From positions 9,751-30,758 of the forward strand of contig JAMYWO010000404.1 in assembly GCA_024220525.1 (NCBI GenBank): a DNA stretch of 21,008 nucleotides, given 5' to 3'. The stretch's first letter is position 1. The number at the start of each line of letters is the position of its first letter. Shown in pieces: positions 110 to 20,419 of this stretch. The stretch comes from Cochliopodium minus (taxonomy: Eukaryota; Discosea; Himatismenida; Cochliopodiidae). Below the pieces are notes generated by a model. The model had not been told where the DNA came from, ran no database searches, and worked only from the letters and a program-made list of their open reading frames with translations. Position numbers and translations under genes: made by a program.

Positions 110-1065
110 TTATTTCTTATTCTTTGTTATTTTATAGATCATGATGGTATCTGATTGATACACTTCATCTAATTCATTATCTGGAACTCTATTATAAATA
201 TAATTGGATTCCTCCAAAAGTTTGAAAAATTTTTTGTCCAATTCTGGCTTCCTTTCTTCATATACAAGATAAATCATCCCATCTTCTTCGAGATAATTAT
301 CAAAATCCTCAATTAAGAATTTATAGTCAGAACTGTAGCATTCACAAACGACATCAATAGCCAAAATATAGTCATATTTACCTTCAATATTCTTTTCTCC
401 CCAACCATGCTTTAGATTATAAAAAATATGAAAATTAAAAATAAAATAAAAAAAGAGAAAATACCGATTGTACAACTATGATTGTGAAAAATAAGTTTAG
501 ATGATACAATAAATGTAAAATGAATTAATTTAATTGAATTACCACAATCCACATTGTTTAATCTAACATTTTTTTTGGCCAAATCAACTATCTCATCAAT
601 TTTATCTGTCATAATCACCTTATTTCCGAATAATTTTGATACTGAAAAGTAAAATGTAAAGATTAAGGTTGATATTAAATAATTTTGGATAAATTACTTG
701 TTATTGAAGATATTCCTGTTCTATAAAAGTAATATTAGATTACAACATGCATTTCAAAGTATTTTACCCACATCCCAATTCTATTTCAAAAACAAAGATT
801 ATAATGTGAATATTAAGCATTTATTGTCAAATTTACCAAGTATCTTTTTTTTTTCGAATATTTTTGGTGATTGTTTTATTATATAGTATACAAAACTCAA
901 GGCAGAATCCCATACTGTTTTCCCCAATTCACCTTTTAATTTTAGAAAGTAATTTTTTGTTGTAAAAATAAAATTTCAATTGTTTTGATTAATCAAACCA
1001 TCAAATATTTGATTTATTTTGATTGTAATATCATCTGTAATCTCTATTTCTCTCATCAAGCTCAT
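110..1065 (-). CDS. METTL21-like (Methyltransf_16) protein methyltransferase, 7 exons
   Basis: Predicted SAM-dependent methyltransferase of 202 residues. Exons in transcript order: 1065-999, 932-837, 780-768, 720-698, 641-543, 475-465, 409-110; 609 nt in total, frame kept through all joins. The start is the first of two in-frame ATGs (M1, M4) and an in-frame TGA lies upstream. Visible motifs: G-K-T-V-W-D-S-A near residue 27 (family N-terminal signature); motif I LELGCGTG at 54-61, formed only after joining exons 2, 3 and 4; acidic D79 in VIMTDK; HGWGE at 104-108 rebuilt through the 11-nt exon; then YDYILAIDVV. In the family's (D/E)xx(Y/F) motif this protein has DVVC (122-125), so the aromatic residue is missing. 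METTL21-type enzymes usually methylate lysines in chaperones or elongation factors; the substrate here is unknown. An AATAAA (minus strand, 114-109) overlaps the stop codon. It is divergent to the USP9X-like gene. Confidence 0.88.
465..475 (-). other. 11-nt micro-exon (exon 6) of the methyltransferase gene
   Basis: Exon between introns 476-542 and 410-464. It contributes TTGTACAATCG; spliced, it reads D-C-V-V-Q-S-H-G-W-G-E, giving the hydrophobic strand expected before the W-G motif of Methyltransf_16 proteins. Skipping breaks the frame. Confidence 0.8.
768..780 (-). other. 13-nt micro-exon (exon 3) of the methyltransferase gene
   Basis: Exon between introns 781-836 and 721-767. It encodes the E-L-G-C-G part of SAM-binding motif I. 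The next exon (720-698) is only 23 nt and supplies the following T-G-I-S-S-I-T. Without either one, the cofactor site and the frame are lost. Confidence 0.87.
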
Positions 1066-1233: not shown

Positions 1234-4200
1234 ATGAGTAATCAACAAGAAATATCAAAGGAATTACAAAACATGACTGTGATACTCAAAATTATAGAAG
1301 GTTCCATTTTGGATGGTTTGATAATTTTTTTAATTATAAATTTTTGCTGTTATTTTTAATTTTCATTTTCAGAGGAAGATCCCAGCCAAAAAATGGAAAT
1401 ATTGCATCATAATTTGGAAGAATCATTGACATATGAACCATATAAATTGAATTTTTTCGTAAATAAATATCTGCCTGATATAATATCTGCCATACTAAGA
1501 AGAGAGTAAAAAAAAACAATTTTTTTCATTTACATGCTTTATATATCTCAAAAATATCTTAAAAACTCAAAATTATATTTCAAAAATATTTTAATCAAAA
1601 CCATTATCCCAATACAGAAAATCTGGACATTCCAAATTAAATCTTACCCTTCAAATAATAATGAAATACTCATTATCAATGCAAATCCCATGCAATGAGC
1701 TCATGAAAAGTTTGGTCAAGATATTCAATCCACAAAATGAATTTTACACAGAAAGATATAATGTCAAGGAGGGAATTGATGAGGAAGAGAAAAAGAAACA
1801 GAAATCAAAATTTGTATCAAAGGTTGCATGCTGGAGATATTCAATTAGTTTGTTGAAGAATGTGAATTTCTTTGCAGATAATAACGGATTCGAATATATA
1901 CATGAGAAAATACAAAATTATGAACAAAGAATATCTATCGATTGTGCCATTGCATTCGCCGATATAATCATTAATGTAAATTTCTTTTTTAAATATCAAA
2001 TTAAATGTCAAATCTTTTTAAATACACCCGAAATTTTATTAGATGAAACACTTCTTTAAAGATGAGACTTATGAAGAATATGCAAAAAATTTTATTGAAG
2101 ATTCTTTCAAGTATGTGGAGACTTTGAAGGAAGCAGAGTTGAGATTGATCAATTTGAACTATCTCAGCGAGTTTGTAAACAAGGTTGGGCAGATTTTCTT
2201 GAGGCTCACAACTGGGTTCATGGGAAGTTTTTATAATTTCAGATTGAATTTATATCATAAGTGTTTGACCACCAACCTACTTACTGTAAGACTTTACGGA
2301 CTGAACGAGTTGAAGAGTATTCTTTCTGACATCACATTTAGCTCTCATCAAAAGCAATTCATATCTTTGACAAGTGAGGAAGCATGCAACTGGCTCTTTA
2401 AAAACAAAATAGTGGAATATTTGTACGGGGATCAAATTCACTTGGAGTTGATTAGCAGGTCTGGATTCATTCCTTTTTTCTTGATTCAAGACAAGAAATT
2501 GAGCAAGGAACACATCGATCTTATTTGGAATGCTTCAAGAAGGGAGGGAGTGAATGATGCAATCCAAATTGAAGTTTACAAGACTATCGCTGATCTTCCA
2601 CTCAACCTTGACGAAGAGAACACCGAATATATCTTCCAAAAAATATGCAATGTTCCTCTTGAAAAATACGACATCACTTTTGTACAAATGTTGGAGAGGT
2701 TCACTAAAAATGCGATAAAAGGGTTCGAAAACAGAAACAAAAAGATCAATTACATCAAGATTGACATTGATATGTCTGATGAGGAGACAGAAGAGTTTAC
2801 AATCAAGAAGATGAAGCACTGGTTTGGACTTGAAGTATTTTGGAATTTGTTGCAAGAAGATACGAATGTGCAAAGTGTAGAAGTTTCAAACTTTGCTTTC
2901 AAAGCTCTCATTGATATCCTCCACGAGTCAAGCGATTTCAACGCTGGTTCTCAAAAGCTTATTTACCTTTGCAAGGCTATTGAAAACATCAAAGTAGGAA
3001 AGTCTATCGAAAATTCCATCAATCTCATCGAGACCATCTTCAATAGAAAGAATCCTCTTCCCAACACTCCTTCTCAAGATGATGAATTGCCAGCAAGCAC
3101 AGCTGCAGTGATAGAAATGTTCGAACAAGATTTTGGTTTGATAAAACTTGTCACAGAAGATTTGATTCGTTTTCATAATCTTGTAAAGTCCAAAGTTTCC
3201 GAAAACCAAGATGTGGAGAAGTTAGTGTTTGCGAGAGTCAGTTACAGGAACAATCTTCTTTGCAGACTCAACTTTTTGAAGTTTCTCACATCCTATTCCA
3301 AAGTAATCATGTCCAAAGAAGTGGTGGAGTTGATATGGAACACTATTTTTGAGAACAACAACCTTGTTCTTGAAAAATTTGACATTGCTATCTTGATCAA
3401 GTGGTTTCAAGATATTTTCAACTTAATTTCCAGGGAGCCTTCTTTTTCTGAAGAGACATTGGTACATCTATTTTCTGAGAAGATATTCAAGGGAGACATT
3501 TCTAATCTTAGCTTTGATTTGTTCGAAATTGCAAAGTTCATTTTCATTAACATCAACCACAGCCAAAAGAAGATCAAAAATCTCATGGGTGGTCGTATTT
3601 TGGTGCTCTCTTTCGATTTTTTTGGATTGGATCAAATTTGGAAATGTATTTTCTCTTGCAACAATCAAAGTGTAGTGGAGTCTGCCATGGGAATCGTTTT
3701 ATCAGCACAAAGGAGAGTTGGCATCACATTGGTACAACAACTTTTGGAGTATAGAAAGAAATTCATTGAGACATGCGTTTCTTACATTCAAAACGAAAAC
3801 GTGGAGATTGTCGAAAGGGCTATCACTTTGTTGAAAAAATTGATTGCTTCGTATTATGAGATCGTCCCAAAGAAGATCAAAAAGATCACCTTTCGTGTGA
3901 GATTCACAAACAAAAATGAATTGACCCTTTCTATGTTTCCTTTTGATACTGTTGGGAAGTTGAAAAAAGAGATTGCAGAACAGACAAAAGCAAATCCTCT
4001 CTTTTTGAGATTGATCAAAGACGCCAAAGAAATGAAACCAAGTTCCTCTTGCATTTCTTTGTATGCTGTTGAAGAAGGAAGTATCATCCATTGTGTCACC
4101 TCTTCCTCGATGAACGAGAACAAAATGGTCTTGAAACCAAAGATTGGAGGTGTAAAAATTGTGGAAGAGGCAAGGTTGGAAAGTCAAGGGAACCACTCTC

Positions 4201-7200
4201 TCAATCCTTCTTTCATCGCTTCTTCTTATTTTGATCTCATTTTCAGGCTTTTGGATTTCAATCCCAAGATATCTAGCACTGCTTGGGAAGTCATCGTCCA
4301 GCTTCCAAAAATTGAAAAGAGAAAGGATCAGATCAGATTATTTTACCAACAAAGTTTCGAATGGGATGAATTGATCAACTCTCGTTCTATTTACAGTCTC
4401 TACTACTCCCTTTTGATTGTTGACTCTGTCTGTAATGAACGTGAAGGAGAAGAAAACAATCGTGTTTTGACGGAGGCCGCCAAAAATTGGAGACAAATGT
4501 TCAGCCAGAAGGGTGGAGTGAATCACTTGTCGAAGATCTTTGTTAACGGGAATTTCTTTGATCTTGAAAACAGAGAAAAGAAAGTGGAATGTGTTTACTT
4601 GATCCTCAACATCTTGTATCCATTTTTCTTTGATGAGAAATCTTTATCTAAAGATTTAGAAAACTACATCCAGCCTCAACTTTTGATTTCAAAGCTCATG
4701 GAAATAACCAGGGAAACATCTCTCATCGCCACAAAGAATAACACAAGTAACATTGAAAAAATAATCCAAGCTTCTCTTTCTTTACTCAGTGCTGCTTCAT
4801 CGAACTCTCATCTTTTGGGTATCATCTTATCTTATCCTAACATTGAGAACTGGCTCTATTCAACTTTAGTTTCTCCTAATGTAGAGAAAGTAAGAAAGAT
4901 AAATGTGAAATTGATCAAGCATCTTTCTTTGAACTCTGAAGCAAGAAACATCTTGTTCCAAAAACTTGTTGCTATTTTGAACAACGACCACAAGGAGAAT
5001 TCTAACGAATATTTTGAGCTGATCAATCATTTGTTGGAGGAAATTTCAAAAGAGAATATCCTTACTTACCAACATTCCATACAACTTTTGGAGATGATTT
5101 CAAAAAAGATTTTGGAAAGGCCTGTGATTGAGAGATCCTACTCCAAAGACATTGATTTCATTTTGGTTGGTCTTATCAACTTTGCTTCTACTCTTTGTAA
5201 ATACAGCCCGGAGGTTAGATCGGAATCAAGAAAGAATGGCCTTGTTCAACACATTCTTAGAGACTGTTTGTTTGACATTGCCAATATTGAAAACAATGGG
5301 CCATTTGCTCCTCCAAAATGCAAGAGTTCCAGGTCTAGAGTTGCTGCTTTCAAGTTGTTGTTGGAATTGTCCAAAGATCAATCTAATTTCCAGATCATTT
5401 GCAATACTTTGGCTGAAGATCACAAAGATGGACACAAAAACACTCTTTGGCATTACTCTACCGAAAACTACGAGAAAGATACTTCAGGATATGTCGGACT
5501 CTTGAATTTGGGAGCAACTTGTTACATCAACAGTTTAACACAACAACTTTTCATGGTACCAGAGTTACGTCATGCAATTTTGTCTGAGTGTAAAGTGAAT
5601 GAGAACATGGGAGATTACAAAAAGAGCAGATTGTATCAGTTTCAACTCCAATTTGCGAATCTCCAATGTTCTGAAAAAAAGTTTTACGATACAAGAAACT
5701 TTTGTAACGCTTTCGGAATCGTGACAGGTGAACAACAAGATGTAGATGAGTGGATGGGAAATTTGTTTGACAAATTGGAAGAGGAGTTGAAATTTAGCCA
5801 CAAAGAAAAGTTATTTCAGGATCTTTTCAGAATAAAGTTAATTTACCAAGTTATCTCGAACGATTGCGAGCACATTTCTGAAAGAGAGGAGGTTTGCTTT
5901 TCTTTGGGTCTCGAAATTCAAGGCAAGAAGAATTTGGGAGAGTCTTTGAAGAATTTCATTCAAGGAGACAATTTGGTGGGAGATAACAAGTATCAGTGTG
6001 CTCAGTGTAACAACAAAGTTGATGCAATCAGAAGATGTTGCCTCTCGGAATTGCCAGACAATCTCATTGTTCACATGAAAAGGTTCTCATTCGATTTCGA
6101 GACTTTTTTGAGAAATAAAGTCAACTCCTTCTACGAAATTTGGCATGAATTGGACTTGGAACCTTATACCAAACAAGGGTTGGCAAGGTTGGAAGGAAAA
6201 CCTATCGAAAACGAAAAGCCTCACGAGTACTTTCAATACAAACTCGTTGGGATCTTGGTTCACACTGGATCGGCTCAGATGGGACATTATTACTCCTTTG
6301 CAAAAGAAAGAATTCCTACTTATGTGAAAGATTGCAGATGGATCTCTTTCAACGACAGCTCTGTTGAAGTTTATAACCCGGAGAGAATTGTGAACGATTG
6401 TGGTGGTGGTCCTGACTTTATGAACAACGAAAAACAGTTCAGTGCTTATTTGTTGTTCTATGAAAGAGTTGGTCTTCAACACAACGAGGATCTCTTGAAA
6501 GATGTAAAGTCGTTTGTACCAAAGGACTTGTTGGAAGAGATTTGGATGGACAACACAAAGTTTTTGCACGATAAAAACAAGTTTGATCTTGATTACATCA
6601 ACTTTGTTTGGGATCAAGTTTTGTTATACAAAGATCAAGAGAGTTTCTACAACACCAATTATGATGCTTCTTATGATTCAGCGCATCCTCTCGCCAAATC
6701 ATTCGAACTAGGATTTAGATTCGTTGTGGAAACACTTGCACACTTCAAAGAGAAATCTTTCATTCCAAAATACTTCAAAGATCTCAAGGAGATTCTCTCC
6801 AAATACGTTCCATCTTGTAATTGGTTGTTATCTTTTTTGGATCAAAACACCATCATGTTGAAAACGATCCTCTTTTCTTGTCCTATCGAGTCATTCAGAG
6901 AAGAGTTTGTCGATCTCATTTTGCATGCATCTAATATCATTTCTCCCAACCAAAGATCATCGTATCTCCTCAAGAACAAGGAAGAAAACATGGAAATTGA
7001 AAACTCTCCGCGCACAAAGAGAAGCCCCAACTCCTTCAACCGCTTCTCGACAGACAAAGAGAAATACGACAAGAACTGCTCCATCCTCAAGCTGATCGAC
7101 ACCTCCTTCTATCTGGTGAGCATTTCAAGGGATCATTGGAAATTCTTTGGTGAACTTTTCAGATTGATCTATGGATTGTGCAAATTGGGGTATGCCGAGA

Positions 7201-10200
7201 AGAAATACATTGTCGATCAAAGATACATCGTCTACTTGTTGGATTGGTATCTTGGTGATGAATCTCCTTTGGATGATCATTCCTCCAAAAGACCGAAGAT
7301 GATCGAGGGAGAAAGAACTCCCAACCTCAAGTTCCTTTTCTTCTTCTTGATCGATATCTTGTCCACTGTGTCCCTCAACCAAGATCCTTTGCAACTTACT
7401 GAGCAGGAGGTAGATTTCTTCACCAATCATACTTTTCTCGATTTTTTCTTCAGCGATTGTCAAGATCAACAGGTAAAATTTAATTATTTTTTTTTTTCAT
7501 CTTTATCTTGCATCTTTTATCTTTTAAATTAAATTTCATCATATTTGTTTTTTTATTTTATCTTTTTTTTTTAAAATTCAAATTCATCATTTATTTTTTC
7601 ATTATATTTTTTCATTATTATTTTTTTCATTATATTTTATTTTACTTTATCTTTTTTTTTTGAATCATTTCATCAATTTCATTTTTTCTTTTTATTTGAA
7701 TTATTCTCTATTTAAATTTTTATTTCAACGACAGTGCATCTCTCAATTTGCTTCGAAACTCTGCACCAACAACAGCAAGAACACAAAACACATTCTCGAC
7801 GTGGCCTTCAACATCTTCGCCAAAGTGAACGATCATTCAAAGTCGAACAACATTTTGGAGTTTCTGAAATCGATGATCTTGATTCAAGATCAAAACACAG
7901 AAGATAGGGTCAACTACATCATCTCCAACTTTTTCGAGAAGCTCAGCTCTCGTTCTCACATAAATGGCCACACTTTGCTTTGTGTCAGTTTCATTTACAA
8001 CATCTCGGAGCATCCTCAGGTTGCCAGCTTTTTGCTCAAGAACGTTGAGTTGTGGGTCAAGCCTTATCTTTATGCGCACTCAAGGTAAAATAATTTAAAA
8101 TAAAACAATAAATCGAATTTTAAAATAAATAAAAATATAAATAAAATTAAAATAAAATGATAAAAAATTAAAAATAAAAATTGTATTTATTAAATAATAA
8201 AATGTGTTCTAATTTTTTTTTTTATTATTTAATTATAAATGTTTTAATTTTTTTAAAAAAATCACTTTAGCTGGAAGGTGAGAACCACCATTGAGAAGAT
8301 CATCTACAAACTCTTTCCCAAATTCCCTCCTCTTCAAGATTCCACAATCTTGAAAGACAAAGACCGTCCAGAAAAGTTTCAGTTATTTCACATTGAAAGT
8401 GAGAATGAAGTAAAGGTAAAAATTTTTTTTATTTTTTTTATTTTTTTATTTTTCAATTTTATTTTATTTTTATTTTTATTAATTCATTTTTTTCATTTTT
8501 TTCAATTTTATTATTTTATTTTTGTTTTTTATTTTATTTTTTTCATTTTTTTCATTTTTTTCATTTTTTTCATTTTTTATTTTTTTATTTTTTTATTTTA
8601 AAGATTCCTGAAGAGATGAGAACGTTGTACTATTCTCTTATCCAATATCTATTCGAAGAAGGCAAAAATCATGGTGTTGGAGTTTCTGACAAAGAAGACA
8701 AGCTTCCTGACGATGTTTTCTTGGACGAATGGAAACTTGTTTCACTCTTTCGTGTATTGAGATGGTAAAAAATAAATAATTTTTTAAAATATCTTTTTAA
8801 TTTTTTTTTTTTATTTATTAAATATATTTTTTATTTTTTATTTATTAATTTTAATTTTTTTGTTTTTTATCTTTTCTATTTCTGTTTATTTTTATTCTAT
8901 TATTTTTTTATTTTTTCAACTCTAAATTTTAAATTTTTTATGTTTTATTTTCATTTTTATTTTTTGTTTTTTGTTTTTAACTTTTTTTTTTTCATTCATT
9001 TGTTTTAAATCTTTTATCTGATCAAAAAAAGGTGTTTGAGAGAAAACCAAGACATGAACTTCTTCGCGGAGATTTACGGAAGCGAGATGTGCGACTTCTT
9101 CATCAACTGCATCGACAACCCCAACAACAGATTCGAGCAAGACCTCAACAAACAAGAGTTCTTCCACCTCTGGCTCATCTTGTGCAAGTTCGCGCCAGAA
9201 AACAAAAAGTTCATCTTTGAAGATAAGAATGTGATCGACAGAATCATCCACACCTTCATTTCTTTGAAGGAGTCGGAGAGATACATCAACTATAACAGAT
9301 ATTCCTTGTATGTTTATTATTCTTTCAAGTTGGAGTTGTTGGGTAACTCTTCTTTCTACAAGGCTTTCTTCGAAACTAATTCCTTTAACTGGTAAAAAAA
9401 ATATTTTTTTATTATTTCGTTTGTTATTTCTTAAATTTTTATTTTTTCATTTTTCATTTTTCATTTTTCATTTTTATTTTTTACATTTTATTTTTTATTT
9501 TTTATACATTTTATTTATTTTTATTTTTTTATTTTTTTATTTTTTATACATTTTATTTATTTTTATTTTTATTTTTTTATTTTTTATACATTTTATTTAT
9601 TTTTTATTTTTTTTTAGGTCTATCAACTTTTTGTGGATGAACAATAACGGAAACTATCCAGAAGCAGGTAAAGTTATCAAAACAATATCTTCTCAATTCG
9701 CAAAAGTTCAGCAATACAGAAAGTAAAAATTTTTTTATTTTTCATTTTTTATTATTTTTTATTTATTTTTTATTTATTTTTTATTTATCTTTATTTATTT
9801 TTTATTCATTTTAATTTTTTTTAAAAGGGAGAGACTCTTATACTTCAAAGAATCTTTCCGTCTCGAAAAAATGAAATTCACAACCAACAATGTCGCTACG
9901 ATGGTCGATGGAATCTCATTGTTTATGCAAACTAACGAAGATGCAAAGGATTTTATTGAATATGGACTGTTGGTAAAAAATTTTTCTTTTTTGATTTTTT
10001 TTTTAAATTTTATTTTATTTTTTTCTTTTTTAGGATTATTTTTCGGAGTATCTTTTGATAGTTCAAAGTGATTTCCTCAAAAACACTCGTCCTTTTGAGC
10101 AAGGTATCTTTTCATTTTTTTTTAATTTATTTCGTTTATTAATTTATTAATTTATTATGATTTTATCTTTTGTATTTGTTTGTTATTATTTATTATTTAT

Positions 10201-13979: not shown

Positions 13980-14763
13980 CTATACTTTCTCAATATTGAT
14001 TTGGGAATCATTGATGATAGAATTCTGCTTCTGCTCGCTCAAAATCTTGAGGAGATTCAATTTCTCATCCTCCAACTTGATGATCTGAGCCTCCAATTGC
14101 TTTTCAACGATAGGAGATAATCTAAGGAGATCCTGCTCAGCCTTTCTGTAGATGAGATCCCTTTCATGCAATACCCTTTTGATTCTGGCCATAGCCTTCT
14201 TAGTCTTTCTGAATCTTCCTTTGGCTTTCACTTGACTGCCATCCCTTTTCTTTTCGGATAATAATTTCACTCTTTCTCTCGCAAGGATGTGCCATAGGGT
14301 GTGGAGATCTTCGAAATTTTTTCTTCTCAAATCATCTGCTTTCTTAATTGATTATAAATGTTAGATAATGAGAATATACTTGTTATTAAGGATTATTAGG
14401 ATTGGATATTATATTAACGTTAATTTATTTGTACATTTATCTCCTTAATAATCATCATTATTCTTTAATTATTTATGAACAAAAGAAATAAAAGTGATCT
14501 TATTGAGTGTTGAATGAAATAAATTTTGGATCATCTTTATTCTTCTTTTATATAAATAAAATGATGGTTCTTATGAAGTTGAATAAACCAATTATATAGT
14601 GGGAGGATATTTTTGTTTCTAATATGATTTTTACCCATTCTCTTCCAGTTTTATGCTCTGGGATCTCTTCATTACCTTCCTTTTTTGCAACAGGAAGCAA
14701 ATCATCAATACCTCTATTGATAGAGAATTTATTCTTGACAAAAGAATTTCTAAATACCTTCAT
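13980..14763 (-). CDS. MRPL47: Mitochondrial large-subunit ribosomal protein uL29m (MRP-L47), 2 exons
   Basis: Predicted 163-residue protein of the mitochondrial 54S/39S ribosomal subunit. Exon 1 is 14763-14635 and exon 2 is 14342-13980, joined in phase 0 across a 292-nt intron. The join restores TGREW-KADDLRRKNFEDLHTLW, matching the family pattern R-x-W-x-A-x-[DE]-LR-x-KSFEDLHkLW. Further family features are KAMARIKRVLHERD near residue 90 and a C-terminal helix rich in E, K and L. The N-terminus (MKVFRNSFVKNKFSINRG) is basic, lacks acidic residues, and fits a mitochondrial presequence. The protein is shorter than animal MRPL47 but holds the whole L29 core. The intron separates the presequence and linker from the L29 domain. 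It lies 203 bp upstream of the RRM-SURP start and 180 bp downstream of the calpain stop, on the same strand. Confidence 0.9.
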
Positions 14764-14943: not shown

Positions 14944-17900
14944 TCAATCAAGATGATTCATCTGAATCAAATCAAGCTTTTCTGTTGATTCAATCGTAAG
15001 TAAGTGATTATTTTCTTGTCCAGGTTTTTCTGTGGTGGCCATAACTTTTTAAAATAAAATTAATTTAAAACCTTTAAAATAAAATCTTTTCTTTTTACTC
15101 AGGTAAGGAGCCTGACTTGCAACAAAAGTGAAATCTAATGTTATGATTTCTTGTCTTACAAGAGGAGAATTAGAATCAAGAAACTTTTCAGTGAACTTTT
15201 GAGCGCCACCAGTGTAGTTGGAGAAGACCAAAATGCATGCTTTGAACATAAGATCTTTTGGTTGTTGGAGTGTGATACGTACAGGGAACTTGGAAGGTAC
15301 TGGGCTTAATGGATGAAGATGGAAAAGAAGATTGTCTGTCCAATCTAAGTCTTGTTTGTCTGATACACTTCCAATGGATCCACCTTTAAGAATAAAATTT
15401 ATTTTTGGAAAAAAAAAAAATTAAAGTTTCTTTACCTGCACATGCTCCAATCCAATGACTTTTCAGTTGAAACTTAAATTTGAAAGAAGGATTTCTAGAA
15501 ACTTGAGTATTTGTGTTGGTGGTTGTGTTGGTGGTAGATTTGTTTGTATTTGTATTGGTAGTAGTTGAGGTGTTGTTAGTGGAAGGTTTAGTGTTTCCTT
15601 GAGGTTTTTTATCTTCTTCATCATCTTTTTCTTTATTTTTATTGAGTTTCTTCATCTTTTCACTTTGATCTTCAAATTTTTGTGGTTTCCCTTGAAATCC
15701 AGTTTTTCCACCTAAGAAAATAAATTTTATTTAAAAAATTTTGAATCTACTAAATAATTTTGGTTTACCTATCTCTCCACATTTAATGTCATCATCACTG
15801 TAAATCGACAAAAAAAAGTTTCCAGCTTCTCCTGCATTGAAAGTACATGGCATCAAAACATAGTAACCCTTATTGACGGAAAGGTGAGCAGTGTTTTCTC
15901 TACCACGAGTAAAAACAGGTCTAAAAATGGATTTGGCTCCTCTGTCTGTGATTTTTTGTTGAGGATTGGTGGATTCCCATAGATATATTCCGATACCTCC
16001 ATATTGTCTTGACCTTTGTCCCTTACTTCTGTTGTCTTCTTGAGCTAAGTGAGCAAATATCTGAGTATTATTCTTGGTTACTTCTATCCAGTATTGGTAA
16101 TTTCTTGTCCTTTTAAAAAAAAATTTAACACAATAAAAAAAAAAATCAAAAATTGATTATTTACCAAGTGGGATTATTGCAACATCCACCCGCTGTTTTT
16201 TGGTCCCATGTTCCTTGAAAGGAGAATTTGTTCCAAACTTTTCCGACTTCATCAGTCAACAATCTACAGACAGCAATTGAATTGTATTGGGTGAGGAAAT
16301 CTTGGTATGAAATCCAAAATACTCCATCATCTATAAAACAAATCAAAATTTTAAAATCATTCCAAAAATTTGAATTTTTTAGAAATTTCACCCCCAAATT
16401 TGTAATCTAATTTTTTTAAAGTTTCTTCGTTCCATTCTTTGCTCCCATCACTCCACTAAAAATAAAAATTATGAGTAAAAGAATGAAATTATTTTAAAGT
16501 AAAAAAAATAATTACAGGACCTTTCCACTCTAAAAAAAAATATAATTCAAAAAAAAAAAATATTTAATTTTACCGTGCTTTCCCCAAGGGTTTCTGATTT
16601 GAAGTAACTTTATTAATTTGCCTCCTGTTTTGAGTTCTTTAGCTTTCAAGATACTGTAAGCATGCCCAGTGAGTATACCCATACCGTTGTCATTTTCGAT
16701 TCCTCCTCCTGAGTTTGAACATCCCATCAAAAACTCCTCGTCATAGTGGTTTCTTATCAAATCCCACAAAGTCCCATCCTTTATCATCACTTGCACTTTT
16801 TCATCTTCAAAGTCTAAACTCTCTGATCCTTCTCCAGTTAAATCGGTCATTCCCTCTTCCTAAAAAAAGAAATATATTAATATATTAATATTATTTCATA
16901 ATAAAAATGAAAATAAAAAAGGAACATATGGAGAACATCAAAAATATTTTTTTATAAAGTTACTAATTGTCCAGATTCCAAGACAGAATAGGAACCATTT
17001 AGTTTTGCAAAAGCTTTTTCTAAAAGTGGAACCCAGAACTCATCTTTTTCCCTACTACGAGCAAATACACATTGCCCTTGTGAATTACAAGGTATTCTGT
17101 CGTCTATGGTGACAACTCTCCAGTCTCCGTCCAAATAAAATTTAATCTATCAAAAGAAATTATTGAGGAAAAAAAAAAATTTTGAAAATAATTTTTTTTA
17201 ACCTGATAGAATCCATACTCTGGATGAGATGATACGAACAAAGGTAAAAGGAGATCTTTTCTTGTTGCAACTATAAAGATGATGTAAATTTTTATTAAAA
17301 AAGTTTTGGGAATAGGATCATTATAAATGGTATCTTTTCAATAAAATAAATTAAATGTTATAATTTATAAAATATATCTTCAAGTTCTCCAATAAAAAAA
17401 AATTAAATTGGGATATCGTATTAAATCAAGACAATTTTAATATTTTTCTTACTCACTGACATTGATCCTATCAACCAACAATCTCCAAGCTCTCCTTGCA
17501 TCACATCACCACTGCTCACTCCATCAACAAATAATGATGGTTTTTTATTTATTTCGGCTTTTAAAAAATATTTTTTTTATTGAATTTTTTTTTTTAATTT
17601 TTAAAAGATAAAGTTCTTGATTTTATATTACACGGCCTTTTCCATGAATCAACACTTCTCACTATAAAAATTAAATTTAATTGTTAATATTATTTTTATT
17701 GAAACAATAATTTTTTTTTTAACGGTAAATTAGAGATGTTCAAAACTTTACAACAGTTCAAAATTTGTTAGTCATAAATTAATATCCGCTAACAAAGTTG
17801 TAAGTTTTGGACATGTCTATAAATTTATTTTTTTGAAGATACCTCTTTTTCCTATACTTTGATCATTTGCAGGAAATTCATCATCCAGATACTTTGAATT

Positions 17901-18048
17901 GCTCTTTTTCAAAGCTAAAATTTATTTCGGAGAAACAACAAAAAGTTATTTCATGGAGATCAAAAAAAAATAACGATTTATTATTACAATTTATGAGATT
18001 CTCTTCTATTTTTTTGGCTTGTTGTAATGTTGTGGATCTTTTTTCCAT
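14944..18048 (-). CDS. Calpain-like cysteine protease with two C2-like (domain III) modules, 14 exons
   Basis: Predicted cytosolic cysteine endopeptidase of 683 residues. Exons in transcript order: 18048-17988, 17914-17843, 17661-17632, 17557-17453, 17270-17203, 17146-16964, 16859-16574, 16529-16516, 16455-16392, 16330-16165, 16109-15769, 15711-15436, 15383-15099, 15044-14944 (2052 nt). The catalytic triad is complete: Cys81 in QGELGDCW, His239 in LTGHAYS, Asn263 in IRNPWG, with normal calpain spacing. WKRPSEI, the run before Cys81, and the EWKGPW motif all appear only after splicing. Two domain III-like modules follow (about 330-463 and 531-675), each with a W...AGG start, separated by a charged then T/N/S-rich linker (about 464-530). 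No penta-EF-hand domain, so Ca2+ control would act through the core and C2-like modules. It ends in tandem TGA stops. Expected role: limited proteolysis of regulatory substrates. Confidence 0.92.
16516..16529 (-). other. 14-nt micro-exon (exon 8) of the calpain-like gene
   Basis: A 14-nt exon lies between introns 16530-16573 (44 nt) and 16456-16515 (60 nt), each with GT-AG ends. It supplies two bases of the Glu codon plus Trp-Lys-Gly-Pro of the conserved EWKGPW segment that follows NPWG in calpains. Leaving it out shifts the frame, so it must be constitutive for a functional enzyme. Confidence 0.85.
17733..17817. mobile_element. 85-bp TA-flanked inverted-repeat element, MITE-like, in calpain intron 2
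   Basis: Ends are imperfect inverted repeats of about 21 bp: GAGATGTTCAAAACTTTACAAC on the left and, read from the other end, GACATGTCCAAAACTTACAAC. Pairing extends inward to TTTGTTAG/CTAACAAA, so most of the element can fold into one hairpin around an AT-rich loop. A TA dinucleotide abuts each end (17731-17732 and 17818-17819), as left by Tc1/mariner-type insertion. The host intron (17842-17662) is 181 nt, about 100 nt longer than most of its neighbours. There is no coding capacity. The alternative is a structured intronic element unrelated to transposition. Confidence 0.6.
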
Positions 18049-18201: not shown

Positions 18202-20419
18202 TTAAATATCCAAATTCTGATCATCATTCTCTTCATTCTCGGGGTTGGATAGATTATCGATATAAGTCTTGATGGTGGAAGAAATCTTGGTAGGCTCTAA
18301 ATCCTGGGCAAGAGAAAAGTAAACGAGAGCTTGTTCCTTGTCTCCGTTTTGGGCGGAAATTTTACCTAACAAAAAGTAAATCAATCCTTCTTTCGGAGTG
18401 AGCTGTTTCAACTCATTTAACACTTTCAAAGCATCGTCAAAGTTTTTGAGTGATACAAGTACTTCTGCTTTTTTGTATTTTGCCAAAAAGTTTAGTTCAT
18501 TATGGCTTAGGGCAAGATCCAAAGTCTTCAAAGAATCTTGCAAGTTCCCCTGTTTCTTCAGGACCATCGCCATGTAACACAATAATGCAGAACTCTCTGA
18601 ATTTATCTTGAGAGCTCTGTCAAAGTGGTAATAAGCAAGATCAAACTTGGCTGTTCTATAGTAAATCATTCCAAGACCGTACCAAGCGTTAACATGTCTT
18701 TTTAAATTATTTTATTTTTCATAATTATTTTCTTTTTAAAGGAAAAGTAGGCTTTTTACCTTGGGTTCAAGTTTATTGCGTTTTGAAAGAAAGACAAAGA
18801 TTTGTCCAAATCTTCGTTTGCTGCATATTCATGACCGCAAAGAGTGTAGGCATATTCAAAGTTGTTGTCAAGTTGTAAAGATCTGTAGAAGAATTTGAGA
18901 GAAATGTCATGTTCCTTTTGCAAAGAAAAGCAATTTCCAACAGCAAACCAACTTTGTGGAGAAAGTCTATCAATGTCCACAAGTTCTTGTGCCAAAGTGC
19001 TAAGTTTAGATTCTTTTTTCAAGTGCCAAAGAGTGCTGCTGTACCATTCCATTCCTTCAGTTCTGAGATAATCGATTTTTCTTGCTTTTTCGAACGCACT
19101 TTCTGCTTCTTTATATTTGGTAAGTTCAAAATAACATCTTCCGATCAAAATCCATATCCACCCATTGTTTTTGTGTTCTTCTGGGAAGTTGTCAATCTCA
19201 TCAAGTGTTTTGGTGCATTTGTATTGACAAAACAACCAATAGATATAAGTGAGTTTCTTCAAAAAATGTACGAGCGAATCTATTTCTCTGTTGTTATCAT
19301 ATGATTGTAAAGGAGTGGAAGGATCCAGGGGTTTGATCACTTTTCTTTTCTTTGGCTTGTTTTTTGGTTTTGTTGAAGAAAAAGAAAGTTTTGAAGTGAT
19401 GCTGTCCCCAATCTTTGTTTTTTCATCATTATTGTCATTCACCAAGAACCTGTTTTTTTCTTTAGGAAAGTCTTTCTTATTGTTTTGTTTTTGAGGAACC
19501 TTCATTTTGACAGAGCTGAAATCGTTTTTATGGTTTGGTGTAGAAAAGTGATCGTTTTTGGACAAAGGTGTCTCCATTATCTTTGGAGTTTCCAATTTCA
19601 ATGAATTTACTTGAAATGGAATCGGTGTGCTTGATGGTATTGGTGAATACTCTGGAATAAATAGATTCGAAGATGGTTTTTCTCTATTCCCAATGAATAT
19701 ATCTTCATTAAGCAATGATGATGGATCCTCATCACCCAATTCACATAACGCTTTGATTGCGCACCACATTGATGGATCAAGAGATATACATTTTCTATAA
19801 CATTTTATTGCTTTCTCTCTTTGTATTAATCTTTGATATGAGAGTCCCAATAAATATAATCCTTTATAAAATATTAAAATTAACGTTAATTTTTTTTAAA
19901 AAAAGGGTATATTGAATGATGGAATTATATTAAGAAGAGGAAATGTTTTTAATGAAAAATTATTTTCATTTTAATGCGATTCAAATGTACACCAAATGAA
20001 AATTATATATATTTAAGGTTATATTTTAAAAATATTTGTATATCCATACATTTATAAAAAGGAAAAATTATTTCTTATGAAATGATAGATATTATTTTAA
20101 TACCTGCAGCACCATTTGGAACCCCATTTGTTATATCTGAATCTCCTCTTAATGCTATCTCTGCTTCTTGATATTTCCCTGTCAAAATACAAGATTGTGC
20201 AAAGAGATATTTATTTAATGGTGTTGTTGATGATAATAATAGCCTATATGCTATATTTGGTTTCCCTTTTCTCATATAAGCTGTTGCAAGAAGATTCAAA
20301 GATTTCTCTGATTTATCAAGTGAATATAATTTTTCACATAAAAAGATCGCATTATCATGCAAATTATAATCGAGAGAATTTTGTCCAGCAGCATATAATT
20401 GATCCACAAGGTTTTCCAT
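18202..20419 (-). CDS. CDC27: Anaphase-promoting complex subunit CDC27/APC3 (TPR protein), 3 exons
   Basis: Predicted 637-residue scaffold subunit of the APC/C ubiquitin ligase, which in known systems binds coactivators (Cdc20/Cdh1) through its TPR superhelix. Exons in transcript order: 20419-20104, 19861-18760, 18697-18202 (1914 nt). The N-terminal part (1-150) has TPR helices with the APC3-type pattern NAIFLCEKLYSLD...LLATAYMRKG. A disordered loop (about 154-297) is rich in S, T, P, K and N, with several S/T-P sites (ETPK, ETPL, STPN, STPL) like those phosphorylated by CDK in APC3. The C-terminal TPR array starts near residue 298; the exon 2-3 join restores LNPRHVNAWYGLGMIYY, very close to the CDC27 consensus. 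It is shorter than human CDC27, mainly in the loop. An AATAAA overlaps the stop codon by one base. Confidence 0.94.

Follow-up and report, generated by a model that had tools for sequence, protein, structure and literature searches.

Can the SAM-binding motif of a methyltransferase be pieced together from exons of 13 and 23 nt and, if so, how would exons so short be recognized? The question is raised by a gene near one end of the window, the 21,008-nt stretch of Cochliopodium minus DNA analysed here. This amoebozoan belongs to the order Himatismenida, and its draft genome is described, in the available text of its report, as 50.57 Mb in 1474 scaffolds with 26.33% G+C and 4.7 introns per gene; RNA-seq was employed there along with BRAKER2 and STAR, and the project given for the assembly is PRJNA811952 (PMC9198077). 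The assembly analysed has 44,654,751 bases in 598 contigs, and G+C is 21-29% in sampled stretches without N runs and 29.9% in the window. The reading preferred below is that this is very probably a constitutively spliced METTL21D-like Methyltransf_16 gene of an intron-dense amoebozoan, with introns short enough for intron definition and with micro-exons that came about through dense intron insertion.

Structure of the gene

The predicted gene occupies 1065-110 of the minus strand. It has seven exons (67, 96, 13, 23, 99, 11 and 300 nt) and six predicted introns (66, 56, 47, 56, 67 and 55 nt), each GT-AG, and the spliced product is of 202 aa with no internal stop (Table 1). The introns are A+T-rich, begin with GTA(A/T), or GTT in the case of intron 1, and end in AG. 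The junctions put forward in the initial annotation (932-837/780-768/720-698/641-543/475-465/409) proved exact, each being bounded by GT...AG, and the range of 47-67 nt that it gave for the introns around the micro-exons agrees with the 56, 47, 56, 67 and 55 nt measured; its statement that the open frames alone amount to disconnected fragments holds with the 60-aa limit that was applied. It had further described three consecutive micro-exons, but while those of 13 and 23 nt adjoin, an exon of 99 nt precedes that of 11 nt. Of its proposal that motif I and the downstream W-G strand appear only with the micro-exons spliced in, the first part stands, as LELGCGTG needs the 13- and 23-nt exons, but the W-G codons are in the 300-nt exon 7, to which another open model, with exon 5 extended to 508, also leads without recourse to the 11-nt exon.

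Table 1. Predicted exons and introns of the methyltransferase gene, and putative micro-exons of other genes
Feature	Sequence	Position	Strand	Observation
Exon 1, 67 nt	window	999..1065	minus	ATG start codon 1065-1063; open frame; blind prediction
Intron 1, 66 nt	window	933..998	minus	GTTTGA...AAAAG
Exon 2, 96 nt	window	837..932	minus	codes (G)ELGKTVWDSA...KKIL(E); within Methyltransf_16 match; blind prediction
Intron 2, 56 nt	window	781..836	minus	GTAAAT...ATAG; donor in top 1.9% of minus-strand GTs of the window
Micro-exon 3, 13 nt	window	768..780	minus	ELGCG of motif I; blind prediction; motif I in 0/300 shuffles
Intron 3, 47 nt	window	721..767	minus	GTAAAA...ATAG; donor in top 0.6% of GTs
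Micro-exon 4, 23 nt	window	698..720	minus	(G)TGISSIT(I), completing motif I; blind prediction
Intron 4, 56 nt	window	642..697	minus	GTAATT...TCAG
Exon 5, 99 nt	window	543..641	minus	blind prediction; alternative end 508 (open 134-nt exon)
Intron 5, 67 nt	window	476..542	minus	GTAATT...ATAG
Micro-exon 6, 11 nt	window	465..475	minus	VVQS; likely, not certain
Intron 6, 55 nt	window	410..464	minus	GTATTT...AAAG
Exon 7, 300 nt including stop	window	110..409	minus	HGWGE... to C-terminus; open frame
Second Methyltransf_16 gene, 13-nt exon	L013	5541-5529	minus	deletion −19.5 bits
Na/Ca exchanger gene, neighbouring 25- and 15-nt exons	L019	2619-2643, 2714-2728	plus	Na_Ca_ex −21.9, −22.0 bits
Na/Ca exchanger gene, 8-nt exon	L019	3241-3248	plus	Na_Ca_ex −4.0 bits
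ABC transporter gene, neighbouring 29- and 26-nt exons	L021	2005-2033, 2090-2115	plus	removing either loses ABC_membrane match (E 0.01)
Calpain gene (14944-18048), 14-nt exon	window	16516..16529	minus	EWKGP; blind prediction; Peptidase_C2 283.9 to 261.4 bits (−22.5)

The training set of a home-made semi-Markov gene model comprised 23 stretches from elsewhere in the genome, amounting to 207,994 non-N bases and not including the window. Seven of the stretches (L011-L017) had been chosen around Methyltransf_16 matches and 16 by contig position; labels such as L011, L013 and L035 stand for sampled stretches of this same Cochliopodium minus genome. Blind to the window, the model recovered exactly the same seven exons, so that the expectation in the initial annotation that standard gene finders would miss the gene did not hold even for a simple one. 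Two forerunners of this model were set aside: one had too weak an intron penalty and placed 1703 introns, judged to be mostly false, in 35 genes, and the other had the window inside its training set and was superseded by the leave-out model.

In addition, 300 dinucleotide shuffles were made of the sequence that separates exon 2 from exon 5, and open in-frame GT-AG paths with at most two inner exons and introns of 40-120 nt were tried for a relaxed motif I. It appeared in none of the 300 shuffles, which offered a mean of 26 paths each, as against 3 of the 12 paths in the real stretch. The seven-exon structure, in which exons of 13 and 23 nt would supply motif I, is confirmed as a prediction from genomic sequence. 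The donor of exon 1, ATG followed across the junction by GTTTGATT, has the lowest score of the gene's six; exon 1 itself is supported by alignment of the product to METTL21D from residue 2 onward.

As to neighbours, the gene is head to head with, and 168 nt from, a USP9X/UBP24-like ubiquitin protease gene (window 1234-7476, plus strand, perhaps reaching ~11358) which has one predicted exon of 5367 nt. Elsewhere in the window there is an APC3/CDC27-like TPR gene (18202-20419, minus strand) with an ANAPC3 match.

The encoded protein

Comparison of the 202-aa product with Methyltransf_16 (PF10294), which the initial annotation had named as the family to align, gave 84.2 bits (E 1.1e-23) over residues 11-170 against a curated cut-off of 21, with motif I present; exon 7 alone scores 23.7 bits. 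Motif I, LELGCGTG, is assembled from exons 2-4, and without the 12 residues of exons 3 and 4 the family score drops from 84.2 to 51.1 bits (−33.1). The best matches among PDB proteins, an incomplete protein set, were METTL21D (64.9 bits; E 1.1e-16) and then METTL21B (45.0 bits). In an alignment of the product with three other Methyltransf_16 proteins from the genome, L56, G57, G59 and G61 of motif I are invariant, and so is W106, whose codon is in exon 7 (409-110). W106 is the conserved Trp which, in the accessible part of a report on the MTF16 family, appears to stack on the adenine of SAM (PMC4482628).

The same report gives as a hallmark of MTF16, again in its accessible part, a DXXY motif, (D/E)-X-X-(Y/F), after motif II (PMC4482628). 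Here the aligned site reads D122-V-V-C and the three other genomic proteins have DIVY, DLLY and DLTY; because of this the protein is not filed as a proven MTF16 lysine methyltransferase. The family's DXXY place is occupied by DVVCECY (residues 122-128; window 355-335, minus strand). What is likely from its sequence is that it is a Methyltransf_16-domain (seven-beta-strand) protein, closest among solved structures to METTL21D. With METTL21D/VCP-KMT and the MTF16 family it shares motif I, W-G and, for METTL21D, an alignment that spans residues 2-201, but differs from them in having DVVC where the family has DXXY; its catalytic activity may be changed. When the genome was searched with the protein no other close copy turned up, matches off the window's contig being 27-35% identical, and among viral contigs ten stretches fitted the pattern with none confirmed as a relative.

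Competing exon structures

Of all parts of the gene model, the 11-nt exon carries the most doubt. It adds VVQS and sets the frame, and removal of VVQS costs 5.5 bits in PF10294. What if the gene has two micro-exons only? Exon 5 would then continue to 508 (134 nt) and be followed by a single 98-nt intron up to 409, with GNSIKLIHFTFI replacing VVQS in the protein. This model is open and in frame, and protein comparison does not condemn it. With PF10294 it has 85.8 bits versus 84.2 for the 11-nt form, and with the PDB entry 7oas 43.1 versus 41.5, 4m36 and 1dus leaning slightly the same way; for METTL21D the two are essentially equal (64.0 and, for the 11-nt form, 64.9 bits). Judged by eye, the span from N95 to W106 in the 11-nt form is 4, 6 and 8 residues shorter than in the three other genomic Methyltransf_16 proteins, and in the form without that exon it would exceed two of them by 4 and 2 residues and match the third in length.

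Splicing signals and coding character point the other way. The model with two micro-exons has the weaker donor (1.7 versus 4.9), its 98-nt intron is longer than about two-thirds of predicted introns, its added segment has a non-coding score (−3.3), and on the combined splice and coding score it is 7.9 nats worse overall. Other families and structures also tend toward the 11-nt form: of 12 further Pfam families listed, ten had the higher score with it or were listed solely with it, one was equal and one was lower by 0.1; MTS (35.9 versus 31.0) and PrmA (35.0 versus 31.7) both favour it, as do the PDB structures 3grz, METTL21A and METTL21B, with METTL21C equal. On this showing the alternative with two micro-exons is rather unlikely, and the 11-nt exon, as predicted, is probably genuine.

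The initial annotation regarded all the micro-exons as obligatory. Taken singly this applies to each, none being a multiple of three, but 13 and 23 add up to 36, and a transcript lacking exons 3 and 4 together would stay in frame while losing motif I. Regulated skipping of the pair by way of one 195-nt intron, giving a controlled inactive isoform of 190 residues with no motif I, would meet no stop codon, and alternative splicing in C. minus is on record for MER3 in the available text of the genome report (PMC9198077). There is, however, no sign of its occurrence, the sites of the introns around exons 3 and 4 score well in the gene model and the double-skip model is 11.2 nats worse, so that such a switch is very improbable. 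That the exons are chance, a reading artefact of decayed or non-coding sequence, is scarcely credible: one other predicted micro-exon in the window, that of MRP-L47 considered below, is indeed a false call, but the empty shuffles, the blind recovery, the 84-bit family match and the 33 bits lost without exons 3 and 4 all contradict it.

Predicted micro-exons across the genome and their recognition

Are the tiny exons of the preferred seven-exon model peculiar to this gene? A census covered 8 genes predicted in the window and 82 elsewhere, 90 in all. Outside the window, 218 of the 407 predicted introns are of 45-75 nt, a range that takes in all six of the methyltransferase gene, 275 are of at most 100 nt and 132 are longer than 100 nt. 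(The mean intron of 682 bp and mean exon of 1361 bp in Table 1 of the genome report, PMC9198077, are misfits to introns of 45-75 nt and, as far as the available text of that report goes, may be per-gene totals.) With the window included, the predictions contain 171 internal exons flanked on each side by an intron of at most 100 nt, and 30 of these exons are themselves no longer than 30 nt, a figure to be taken as an estimate since false calls may be present among the 30 as well. One call was rejected, a 9-nt exon (14443-14435, minus strand) in the MRP-L47 gene at 13980-14763, where the Pfam score is 50.6 with the exon and 57.9 without it; it is outside the 30 of 171 because one of its introns exceeds 100 nt. 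The gene codes for mitochondrial ribosomal protein L47, and its presence suggests mitochondrial ribosomes in this amoeba.

For ten proteins (five in part), picked for likely domains from 20 listed other genes, a Pfam scan was made. Eleven of the 14 micro-exons in the scanned parts fall inside a Pfam match, one of the eleven, of 4 nt in L017, being at the edge of its match. Uncounted, because the Pfam match misses the exon, are a 10-nt exon near Walker A in an AAA gene of L031 and exons in L011 (23 nt) and L029 (30 nt); a 15-nt exon of an actin-like gene, also of L031, is inside its match. When the residues of micro-exons were deleted the family score fell in 10 of 11 tests, two of which were on the methyltransferase gene itself (Table 1 has individual cases), the 9-nt call in MRP-L47 being the one exception, and joint deletion of the 5- and 22-nt exons of a SPRY gene cost 7.7 bits. 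The EWKGP encoded by the calpain micro-exon directly follows an RNPWG motif. The second Methyltransf_16 gene also has its 13-nt exon within motif I, at a position that differs by 5 nt as judged by eye; this may be coincidence or intron sliding.

Micro-exons look to be common in this amoeba, and the methyltransferase gene does not seem special. Of the suggestions in the initial annotation, intron definition agrees with the short introns, and a natural test case is a reasonable description though not a distinctive one: predicted micro-exons are frequent in the sampled stretches, and micro-exons with short introns have already been tested in worms, as the available portion of that study reports (PMC8378409).

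How might recognition work? Introns of 47-67 nt would let U1 at the 5' site pair across the intron with the factors at the branch and 3' site. Where introns are short enough to be recognized across themselves, the length of the exon between them should be nearly free, and the 13- and 23-nt exons, and probably that of 11 nt too, would be the outcome of dense intron insertion with no special device involved. We infer from the sequence that the gene is transcribed, that its RNA is spliced as modelled by intron definition and that inclusion of the micro-exons is constitutive. A bolder version, in which C. minus relies on intron definition to such a degree that its exons lose any lower size limit, catalytic motifs routinely come from runs of micro-exons and skipping of the 36-nt cassette serves to switch off SAM binding, is doubtful indeed.

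A gene in L035 has WW matches of 67.2 bits and FF matches of 45.8 bits, each in two stretches, and scores 21.6 bits with the FF_PRPF40A model, under its cut-off of 27. WW and FF domains together form the layout of PRP40, and the L035 gene is presumably PRP40-like on that account. Caenorhabditis elegans is instructive in this regard. According to the available text of the pertinent study, its micro-exons need PRP-40 unless the flanking introns are very short, a 58-nt intron relieving the need, and its authors invoke intron definition; two PRP-40-independent micro-exons were detected, with introns down to 49 nt (PMC8378409). The likeness between the tcer-1 type described there and the C. minus gene is in having exons of at most 27 nt beside introns of ~50-60 nt, which the worm study links to intron definition; the difference is that just two PRP-40-independent ones were detected in the worm (PMC8378409), whereas two are predicted side by side in C. 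minus and others in further genes.

Plants provide other parallels. Annotation frequently overlooks their micro-exons (1-15 nt), which are similarly tiny and needed by the protein (PMC8831610), and like the 1-nt exon of plant APC11, described in the available part of PMC4674806, some are not multiples of three. Those of plants, in these accessible accounts, have been shown by RNA-seq, whereas the C. minus ones are deduced from one genome. For worms and plants, micro-exons this small have already been published, together with a link to intron definition. For Amoebozoa no paper on micro-exons was found in one open-access collection, which lacks most subscription papers; judged by title, its papers on micro-exons and introns in protists included one on the protist Creolimax (PMC4739763) and none on Cochliopodium or an amoeba. 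Neither 'microexon' nor 'micro-exon' occurs in the main text of the report on the C. minus genome (PMC9198077).

What the methyltransferase gene would provide is a compact test gene for recognition of tiny exons, two adjacent micro-exons carrying an essential motif with the result that any failure of splicing should show in both RNA and protein. It also suggests a check of C. minus annotation for motifs that have dropped out where micro-exons were overlooked. Should the genome-wide picture prove true, C. minus would offer a free-living protist for the study of micro-exon splicing without neuronal regulators.
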